Source of the DNA: Casuarius casuarius
Lineage: Eukaryota; Chordata; Aves; Casuariiformes; Casuariidae
Assembly: GCA_003342895.1 (NCBI GenBank)
Contig: PTFA01000404.1
Coordinates: 482,188-546,187, forward strand
Length of the DNA stretch: 64,000 nt
Direction: 5' to 3'
In this document: in pieces, positions 4,901-7,900 of the stretch
How the letters are laid out: every line of letters begins with the position of its first letter
Position numbering within the stretch: the stretch's first letter is position 1
Made by a program: the position numbers and the translations under genes
Notes under the pieces: model-generated
What the model saw: only the letters and a program-made list of their open reading frames with translations
Databases searched by the model: none
What the model was told of the DNA's origin: nothing

Positions 4901-7900
4901 GGGTCCTAACCCCTTGGCTTTGCTCCCTCTAACCCCGGCATGCCCTTCTCTGGCTGCACTCTCTGTTCCAGAATGTGCACAGGCAGCTCGATCTCCTGGT
5001 GGCGGCTTGCGCAGTTGGAGTTGGATGTTGCTTCGGGGCTCCTCTTGGAGGCAAGTGTCTTCCTGTATGTGACATTTAACGTACACCTCATTTCGCCTCT
5101 CGCTGTGAGATCTCCTGCTCTCAGGCAGGTTCTCCACAAATGTCTCTCCAGTTCTGTAGCATCATGAGGCATTCTTTCCTCATGTAACTGGTGGCAATGG
5201 AAGAAAGAGAGAGCTTTGTTCTGCAAAGGCCATAGGAAAAGCAACAACTTTTAAGGTGCTGTTTTCTAATGACAGAGCTTGTTCAGTCCCTGCCTGCCTT
5301 CCACGGACATTGTTCAACTTGGAGAGTACCAAGCTCTGTTCACAAAATAATAAAGATTCAGTAGAGAACAGAAGGTAAAAAACACTTCACATAAGGAGTG
5401 ACATCATTTAAGGGCAGGAGATGACAGCAGTTATGACAGGAAGTGATTGCATCAATAGTGAACGACTGTACATACACTTTTATCAGTGGACTGGAGAACA
5501 GAAAAATCTGTGTGTAAAGTTTTGGGCTCCCCTGTGTAAGAGAGATGCAGAGGGGTAACAAGACAGTTGGGAGGCTGAAGTAATAATATATGGAGAGAGG
5601 CCGAGGGAGCTGGATTTGAGCAGCCTGCAGGAGAAAAGGCTAAAGGAGGGGAGTCTATTTGCTATCATCAACCACCTAAAGGGGCATTTTAGAGAAGATG
5701 GAGTCATACTCTTCTTAGAGGTAAATAGTGCAAGAGGCAATGCACACACTTTGCAACATGGGAAATTTGGACTATGTATAAAGGAAAAATGTCCCTCTCT
5801 CCTGAGGCTGGTTCAGCATTGGCACAGATGTCCAGAGAGGCTGGGGAATCTCCACCATTGGAGATGTTCAGGACTCACCTGGGCAAGATCCTGAGCAACC
5901 TGATATAACCTTGGAGTGAGCCTAGCTCTGAGCAAGGAGTTGGAGGAGAGGCCTCCAGAGGTCCCTTCCGACTTTTCTATTAGACGTGATCTTACTGTGA
6001 GGAGAAATGTGGACATTTATCTCCTGTCTCATTTGTACTAGTCTTCTGAGTCAGGGAATTTTATTAAACAGCACATGTGACAGAGGCACATGATAACTTC
6101 TTCATAAAACAGTGAAAACGTATTCATAAATAACTTGTCTTAAAATGTTGTCCTTTCTTTGTTGTACTTTCATTTCACTTTCTCCCCAACACTTTCTCCC
6201 CCTGAATCTCTCTCCTTGGTTATTGTGCCCAGAAGTTTAAAGAGTTTTTGAAATCTGATGTTTTTTCTAAAATGACTTTATTTCATCCATGCACTACTTC
6301 GATGTTAGTCTTGAAATGGATGAATTAGACGCAATGTAGTCCTATCTTGCATTATGATAACAGGATTAGTGATTTTTACACTGGTTTGCTGTGTAAAAAA
6401 AGGAAGGAAAATAGTTTGTCAGATACAAACTAAAGGTTCCTCAACTATTGACCTGGAAAAAAACATGCCAGGAAGAAAATCAGGTTCAGCAAGAGAGAGG
6501 CTGAGAGCTGTGTGGGTGGGCAGTATAGCAAGTTGGAGACAGCCTGAGTTGAAGCCTGATGCTTCAAGGCAAATTTGTAAGTCTGCCAAAAACCAATACA
6601 CACTGCCCAGAGGAGACCCAGGACAAAGCTGTAGATTTGGCCAGACTCTTTTGGGTCAGGGAAATGTCCCCGGCCCTTTTTTGTCGGACTGTGCAGGCAT
6701 AGCCTTGACACATCTCTTGGCTGAGGCTCCATCAAACACCTGCTCAGGTAAGTCGGACTTCATGGCCTCTGGCCATTAGAGGTCACCTTGGCCATTTTTA
6801 TTCCCACAATAACACAAAACCCCCCTTTCTCAAAACTCCACTCTCATGGGAGATCTAATAAGCTACTTTAGAGCCATGCGATAGCAGGAAGTACCAAGCA
6901 CACTGGCTTTAACGCTAGTGTTCTTCATATTAGGAATCACCTAAGATATAGGCAACACAAAATAAAACCTATCTGCTTCCCTTTCCTAAGGCTCCTCACC
7001 ATTCTCAAGCACTTTGGGGTCCTCAGGTGCTCTTCCAAATCCTGGAGAAAGAGTGGAAGGGGATTTTTCTCCCTTTCAGCAGTTCTAGGTCCTCCCAAAC
7101 AGTCTCAAGAGAGACTCTACCTTTTATAACATCTATTTCACTTTAGTATCTTGATTGCTTTCACCAAGAGAGCACAATATTTTACTACATGATCTGTTAC
7201 TCACTTACCTACTCAGGATGACTGAACGTACAGGAGCTGTCCGAGTTCAGTTCTGGATATGCATGCGCCTTGCGCATCCAAATGCAGAGATTTTTTTCTT
7301 TGAGGCACTCTCTCACACATGTGCATCCTGAGATTCCCTGCCAAAGTAAAAGAGATGGAGCAAAACAAACGTGGGCTTCCAGCTTCCCAATGATTTTCCA
7401 TGAGACATTTCTTCAATAGTGACAGAAATGTGCATGTTTTGATGAAAGATAGGATGCTGCCTTTTCCATGTGTCTTGAAGATGTGACTCCAGGCATATGC
7501 CTGTCTTGAGCCAAGTCTTTTGAATATTTTGAAGCCATCCAGGAGGGAGAAGCAAGAGCTAGATGACACTATGTAGCTGTACCTGCTAATTCTGTTACTC
7601 ACTCTTTCCTTTCTTTCCTTCTTTCTTCTGTTTGTTTGTCTCTCTTTGTCTCTTCCACCAGTAGCAGCCATATTATTACACGGATGTCCTGACTGTGGGT
7701 TGTGCTGTTGGGGTCGGCTGCTGCTTTGGGACACCACTTGGAGGCAAGTGGCTGTTCACTTTGCTTTCTTTTTTCTCAGGTAGTTAAATCCTCTCCTGCC
7801 TAGTCCTGTTCTCCTTTTCCCCTTTCCTGCACCCTGTTCTTGGTCTGTCACCTACCTTGAACAAAGAAACTTGCCTTTAATGTTTTCAGTCTTCCCAGCT

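Follow-up and report, generated by a model that had tools for sequence, protein, structure and literature searches.

Exon 7a of the CLCN1 channel gene appears to be an ancestral coding alternative to exon 7

We analysed a 64,000-nt stretch of the Casuarius casuarius genome (contig PTFA01000404.1, positions 482,188 to 546,187 of the forward strand; hereafter the window) in which the CLCN1 gene carries two homologous 79-nt exons, 7a and 7b, in tandem between exons 6 and 8. The anatomy of this pair, its frame logic, its conservation at the protein level, the homology of the two exon types and their polarity could be demonstrated. The best explanation, to which we assign a probability of roughly 0.7, is an ancient tandem duplication with 7a as the ancestral and 7b as the derived copy, a reading frame that accepts one copy at a time, and a regulated 6-7a-8 mRNA that encodes a working channel. 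The exon itself is known in mammals; its status as an ancestral coding alternative appears to be new.

Results

Two Versions of Exon 7 in CLCN1

The gene and the elements surrounding the exon pair were placed in the window as follows.

1799..32138 (end approximate), + strand: the CLCN1 exons present in the window, the first being counted as exon 2; in-order tblastn matches to goose, ibis and kagu ClC-1 proteins
4095..4172, + strand: exon 6, 78 nt, the upstream partner common to 7a and 7b; AG acceptor, GT donor, open frame
4972..5050, + strand: exon 7a, 79 nt, ancestral ClC-2-like type as judged from its residues; splice sites, open frame, tblastn and residue pattern, a type shared by the 120 ClC-1 proteins that passed strict scoring
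5051..5056, + strand: GC donor of 7a (GCAAGT), from the sequence
7665..7743, + strand: exon 7b, 79 nt, derived copy, of the type found in the human ClC-1 chains in PDB; splice sites, frame, alignment and residue pattern
7744..7749, + strand: GC donor of 7b (GCAAGT), from the sequence
8151..8276, + strand: exon 8, 126 nt, the downstream partner common to 7a and 7b; holds the stop codon if both copies are included, from the frame join
13808..13892, + strand: exon 9, 85 nt; the frame meets its stop here if both copies are skipped, from the frame join

Both copies in the window start in phase 0, leave one base over and are open, and 15 of their 26 residues are identical. When recomputed from the window, these properties agreed throughout with those given in an initial sequence-only reading, as did the coordinates and the 79-nt lengths. 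In sequence, each copy has splice sites of its own, with AG acceptors and the same GC donor (GAG/GCAAGT). Scored with a rough matrix, the donors reached 5.0 each, and the acceptor of 7a (8.5) scored higher than that of 7b (5.0). The description of both acceptors as clean thus holds for 7a and less well for 7b, whose acceptor (7656–7670) lies inside a CAGTAGCAG tandem; use of the first AG in this tandem would add an in-frame TAG, and use of the third would remove a Gln.

The 7a exon of the window was matched in tblastn by two bird ClC-1 proteins, one from goose with the 7a type (E = 2.9e-12) and one from kagu with the 7b type (E = 1.6e-6). As these matches sit in place and in order within the CLCN1 gene, 7a is not a chance resemblance.

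Two further observations concern the surroundings of the pair. Exon 6 (4095–4172) reads AVLSRF in the window and AVLSKF in the other listed bird ClC-1 entries, while the listed teleosts often have AVLSRF. A minus-strand open frame (48263–48850) lies in the same window as CLCN1; its predicted product appears to resemble FAM131B, a neighbour of CLCN1 in mammals.

The Reading Frame Admits One Copy at a Time

Exons 2–9 of the window were joined in silico in four combinations. The chains 6-7a-8-9 and 6-7b-8-9 both remained open. With both copies included (6-7a-7b-8-9), the frame closed within exon 8, 107 nt short of the end of that exon; with both omitted (6-8-9), it closed within exon 9, 4 nt short of that exon's end and upstream of many further exons. 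The join bears out the earlier proposal that a single exon keeps the frame and that both or neither destroy it. Transcripts with early stops are usually removed by nonsense-mediated decay, so the joint-inclusion and double-skip forms should be degraded. Exclusion at the protein level is enforced by the reading frame and not by crowding, which we rejected as a cause because the two copies are separated by an intron of 2614 nt.

Singly included forms were represented by database isoforms of both kinds in the eight species checked and by one RNA-like contig (P0049, see below). Like the tandem duplicated mutually exclusive exons of the human set (PMC9741552, PMC5740500), the two exons of the window are adjacent and homologous and have equal length and phase. 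Unlike in that set, exclusion is leaky in mouse Clcn1, where the accessible literature describes a frameshifted product containing both 7a and 7. What the data support is a coding pair with a one-at-a-time frame; strict exclusion is doubtful in mouse and a possibility in the bird.

Between 4173 and 8150 we counted six inverted-repeat pairs of 14–24 nt, one joining intron 6 to the start of 7a and one linking the introns that flank 7b; this is a raw count and is not relied on here. Rfam gave no match in the 64-kb window at gathering scores.

Relation to the Mammalian Exon 7a

The sequence-only reading knew of no description of such a pair in ClC-1. For the exon this was wrong, as it corresponds to the MBNL-regulated myotonic dystrophy exon 7a of mammals. 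The accessible parts of the literature report RT-PCR products in mouse of 345 bp without and 424 bp with 7a, a difference of 79 nt, with inclusion shifting the frame (PMC10082032). One source describes 7a as a cryptic exon that induces a frameshift and regards the process as shared by mouse and human (PMC12458930); another attributes the repression of 7A by MBNL1 to a hairpin located where intron 6 meets 7A (PMC4176163). In DM1 muscle, 6b and/or 7a are included, and 6 and 7 excluded (PMC5840707, available in part). Joint inclusion of 7a and 7 in mouse occurs, by the same partial sources, chiefly upon Mbnl1 loss.

Window 7a agrees with mammalian CLCN1/Clcn1 exon 7a in its position between exons 6 and 7, its length of 79 nt and the frameshift that results when it is joined to exon 7. 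The mouse and human exons were matched by position and size rather than by letters; the 7a-type peptide was present in 13 strictly scored mammal labels among database proteins. The difference lies in interpretation: the available texts present the mammalian exon as cryptic, frameshifting and MBNL-controlled, whereas in the window it is an in-frame alternative. In the text portions accessible to us, we found none calling 7a homologous to exon 7 or its in-frame alternative; an earlier mention in the principal study of the 7A mechanism (Kino et al. 2009) is possible. The string 'CLCN' was absent from the main text, as available, of two surveys of mutually exclusive exons (PMC9741552, PMC5740500). 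A long-read mouse study gives 7a isoforms and, in its available text, names none without exon 7 (PMC12458930); this makes plentiful 6-7a-8 in the muscle of young mice less likely.

MBNL-type motifs (YGCY) were not enriched around window 7a (seven versus 8.7 expected), and motif clusters there were rejected. A small hairpin (−10.0 kcal/mol) spans the 7a acceptor, in a 90-nt region no stabler than shuffles (z = 0.18). In zebrafish mbnl mutants, CLCN1 splicing was unchanged according to the part of the report available (PMC8246264). Given the zebrafish result and the motif counts, mammalian MBNL regulation may not apply in this bird.

Conservation of 7a among Vertebrate ClC-1 Proteins

Three protein searches, with the best 120 taken from each of 4417, 1984 and 210 matches, yielded 337 distinct proteins, and manual labelling assigned 7a instead of 7b to 125 of them. 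To pass a strict test, a protein needed exact junctions, a ClC-1 flank, Pro 282, Gly 284 and Ala at both 270 and 281. Among the matches listed, which are ranked by similarity to 7a and so favour intact copies and leave uncounted any species whose 7a is missing or broken, the test was passed by 120 of the 125 labelled proteins (89 species plus contig P0049). This set comprised 14 birds, 13 other reptiles, two amphibians, 13 mammals (including P0049), 47 ray-finned fishes and one shark, again among the matches listed; most 7a entries come from genome annotation, a process that can select any exon with an open frame. The five failures were P0051 and P0121 (both mammalian, the 7a itself plain and a flank letter changed), P0157, P0181 and P0194. 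Left out beforehand were 7a-7b or truncated fusions (P0015, P0037, P0040, P0042, P0044, P0195 and P0200), GGKW read-through forms (P0034, P0035, P0039, P0043 and P0045), entries with altered 5' ends (P0048, P0053, P0197, P0198 and P0203) and P0196, which had no readable segment.

Over the 26 residues, the mean identity of 7a was 0.73 between birds and mammals and 0.60 between birds and fishes, and the Tasmanian devil and lemur segments shared 25 residues. Both versions were present in the eight species checked, with identical flanks in seven; the Chelydra pair differs downstream. In the sequence-only reading, an absence of junction reads combined with a lack of conservation or neutral substitution rates in related species was to mark 7a as a dead duplicate. 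As protein, 7a is present from shark to mammals, a result that speaks against that outcome.

One entry, P0049, is a 1376-nt contig encoding 421 residues of mammalian-type ClC-1, in which many exons are joined and 7a runs straight into exon 8. Exactly where the matching bird exon ends, the contig departs from the ClC-1 family. Because joined exons are followed by sequence running past an exon end, P0049 is best read as a partly spliced 6-7a-8 transcript, a retrocopy being the less likely reading.

In the colugo entry (P0042), a 26-residue 7a with an altered end is read in frame straight into 7b. The colugo 7a looks frame-broken, apparently through the loss of one base, and would then be an in-frame cassette before 7b. 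In P0037, P0040 and P0015, predictors have fused 7a, some intron and 7b, creating false insertions in database ClC-1 sequences.

Polarity and Age of the Duplication

Two trees were built, one from the flanking exons of 43 hand-chosen rows and one from the 26 columns of the exon segment. In the flank tree, 7a and 7b rows mixed by species: the two window rows were identical, turtle grouped with turtle, salmon with salmon, and basking shark with stingray. The 7a rows fell inside ClC-0/1 (support 99/97). The exon tree, with its 26 columns only, placed all nine 7b rows, stingray included, in one clade (100/99), and 7a and 7b jointly branched off from the ClC-2 and invertebrate rows (96/100).

Ala occupies positions 270 and 281 in all 23 7a rows, all five ClC-2 rows and five of six invertebrate rows; all nine 7b rows have Gly and Thr there. 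Val268 and Leu266, each present in 21 of 23 7a rows, are specific to 7a. When the 7a and 7b forms were compared with solved structures, the 7a form obtained more bits than the 7b form for ClC-2 (8ta3; 147.8 versus 138.2), ClC-Ka (75.7 versus 69.0), CmCLC (55.3 versus 42.7), ClC-3 (54.5 versus 49.6) and ClC-7 (36.7 versus 34.8). The two were level for ClC-6 (27.8 versus 27.9), and 7a was lower for plant CLC-a (28.4 versus 30.9). Since key residues of 7a recur in ClC-2 and in invertebrate channels, and since it outscores 7b on most of the structures compared, 7a is, by these comparisons, the ancestral type kept and 7b the derived copy.

The exon-7 segment of ClC-2 has an 11-residue stretch and the AP-G end in common with 7a, and the solved ClC-2 structures demonstrate that a segment of this kind can fold within a CLC channel. 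ClC-2 is nevertheless a different gene: 7a has ClC-1 flanks, and the first residues of the segment differ. Cartilaginous fishes supplied one entry of each type, a shark with 7a (P0275) and a stingray with 7b (P0315), on which grounds the tandem duplication is judged to predate the split between cartilaginous and bony vertebrates.

Selection on the Pair and Predicted Effect on the Channel

Between 7a and 7b in the window, the proportion of sites that differ is 0.62 for synonymous and 0.32 for nonsynonymous positions (one-sided p = 0.016). From codon 7 on, the values were 0.58 and 0.14 (p = 0.0009), for a sub-range picked after looking at the data. The 10-residue stretch that is identical in both copies holds seven synonymous and no nonsynonymous differences and was excluded as a test because it was chosen for being identical. 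No vertebrate relatives for dN/dS were found with an 87-residue query in genome_contigs or viral_contigs.

In an alignment to human ClC-1 chains, the exon 7 segment corresponds to residues 259–284, which we take to be the stretch after helix F together with helix G. Window 7a has His for Tyr at 261 and Val for Thr at 268 but retains Cys277, a position at which the teleost 7a rows carry Thr. In the accessible text of human studies, C277 is placed in helix G, Y261C loses NAD+ control, C277Y lowers conductance (PMC10604815) and T268M alters the common gate (PMC6978732). Since residues 261 and 268, which 7a changes, are both sites of human effects, common gating and cofactor control may be altered in a channel of the 7a form, which would be used where the 7a repressor is scarce.

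Discussion

The preferred reading can be laid out as a sequence of steps. A tandem duplication of one exon of the ClC-0/ClC-1 gene preceded the divergence of cartilaginous from bony vertebrates. Of the two copies, the one lying upstream, 7a, retained the ancestral ClC-2-like segment comprising helix G and the stretch after helix F, and the downstream one, 7b, changed and became the usual ClC-1 exon. Either copy alone yields a full frame, and both or neither a frameshift that should lead to nonsense-mediated decay. The mammalian MBNL-repressed myotonic dystrophy exon is this same 7a. In some tissue or stage, 6-7a-8 mRNA would be made in regulated amounts, and its product would probably be a working channel with altered common gating.

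An unlikely competitor is that 7a has been kept only as a regulatory poison exon, which beside exon 7 shifts the frame and lowers channel levels where MBNL is low, its peptide being irrelevant. This is the documented behaviour of 7a in mouse and human muscle, as far as the available texts go, and in the window 6-7a-7b-8 also gives an early stop. However, a poison exon needs neither a conserved peptide nor an exact junction, and 7a keeps both from shark to mammals, with synonymous divergence twice the nonsynonymous between the window copies. Poison-exon and coding roles could coexist in mammals.

The remaining two accounts deny that 7a is a maintained copy of the ClC-1 exon, and both seem to us very improbable. 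If 7a were a dead or decaying duplicate, the database 7a isoforms would be gene-prediction artefacts, as some plainly are (the 7a-7b fusions P0015, P0037, P0040 and P0195 and the GGKW read-through forms), and the colugo 7a does look broken; yet no stop or frame break occurs in the 120 strictly scored proteins (from a list whose ranking by 7a similarity favours intact copies), the residue pattern has been kept since before the shark split, and P0049 looks like RNA. Copying or conversion from CLCN2, in place of tandem duplication of the ClC-1 exon, would account for 7a being nearer than 7b to ClC-2 (8ta3), but 7a is also nearer to ClC-Ka, CmCLC and ClC-3, as retained ancestry predicts. The exon tree moreover joins 7a and 7b apart from ClC-2 and invertebrates (96/100), and 7a has residues of its own at 268 and 266.

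The assays described for mammals have a blind spot for an ancestral coding form of this kind. RT-PCR primers in exons 5 and 8 flank the pair (PMC12946605, as far as accessible), and such outside primers cannot tell 6-7a-8 from 6-7-8 because 7a and 7 are equal in length. The ddPCR assay reads the 7a-to-7 and 6-to-7 junctions in its available description (PMC10082032) and misses 6-7a-8, in which neither junction is present. Long reads (PMC12458930) could see it.

Should 7a be a coding exon of this age, CLCN1 would encode a second version of the channel, and the assays described would miss its mRNA. More broadly, and only tentatively, we propose that two differently gated versions of ClC-1 exist across jawed vertebrates, the 7a version being ancestral and used outside adult muscle or early in life, which would make the 'cryptic' exon a real channel exon. 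If true, this would recast a therapeutic target, as 7a-skipping oligonucleotides would remove the 7a isoform too. For the study of ClC common gating, the 7a/7b pair would offer a natural, long-kept swap of the helix-G segment.
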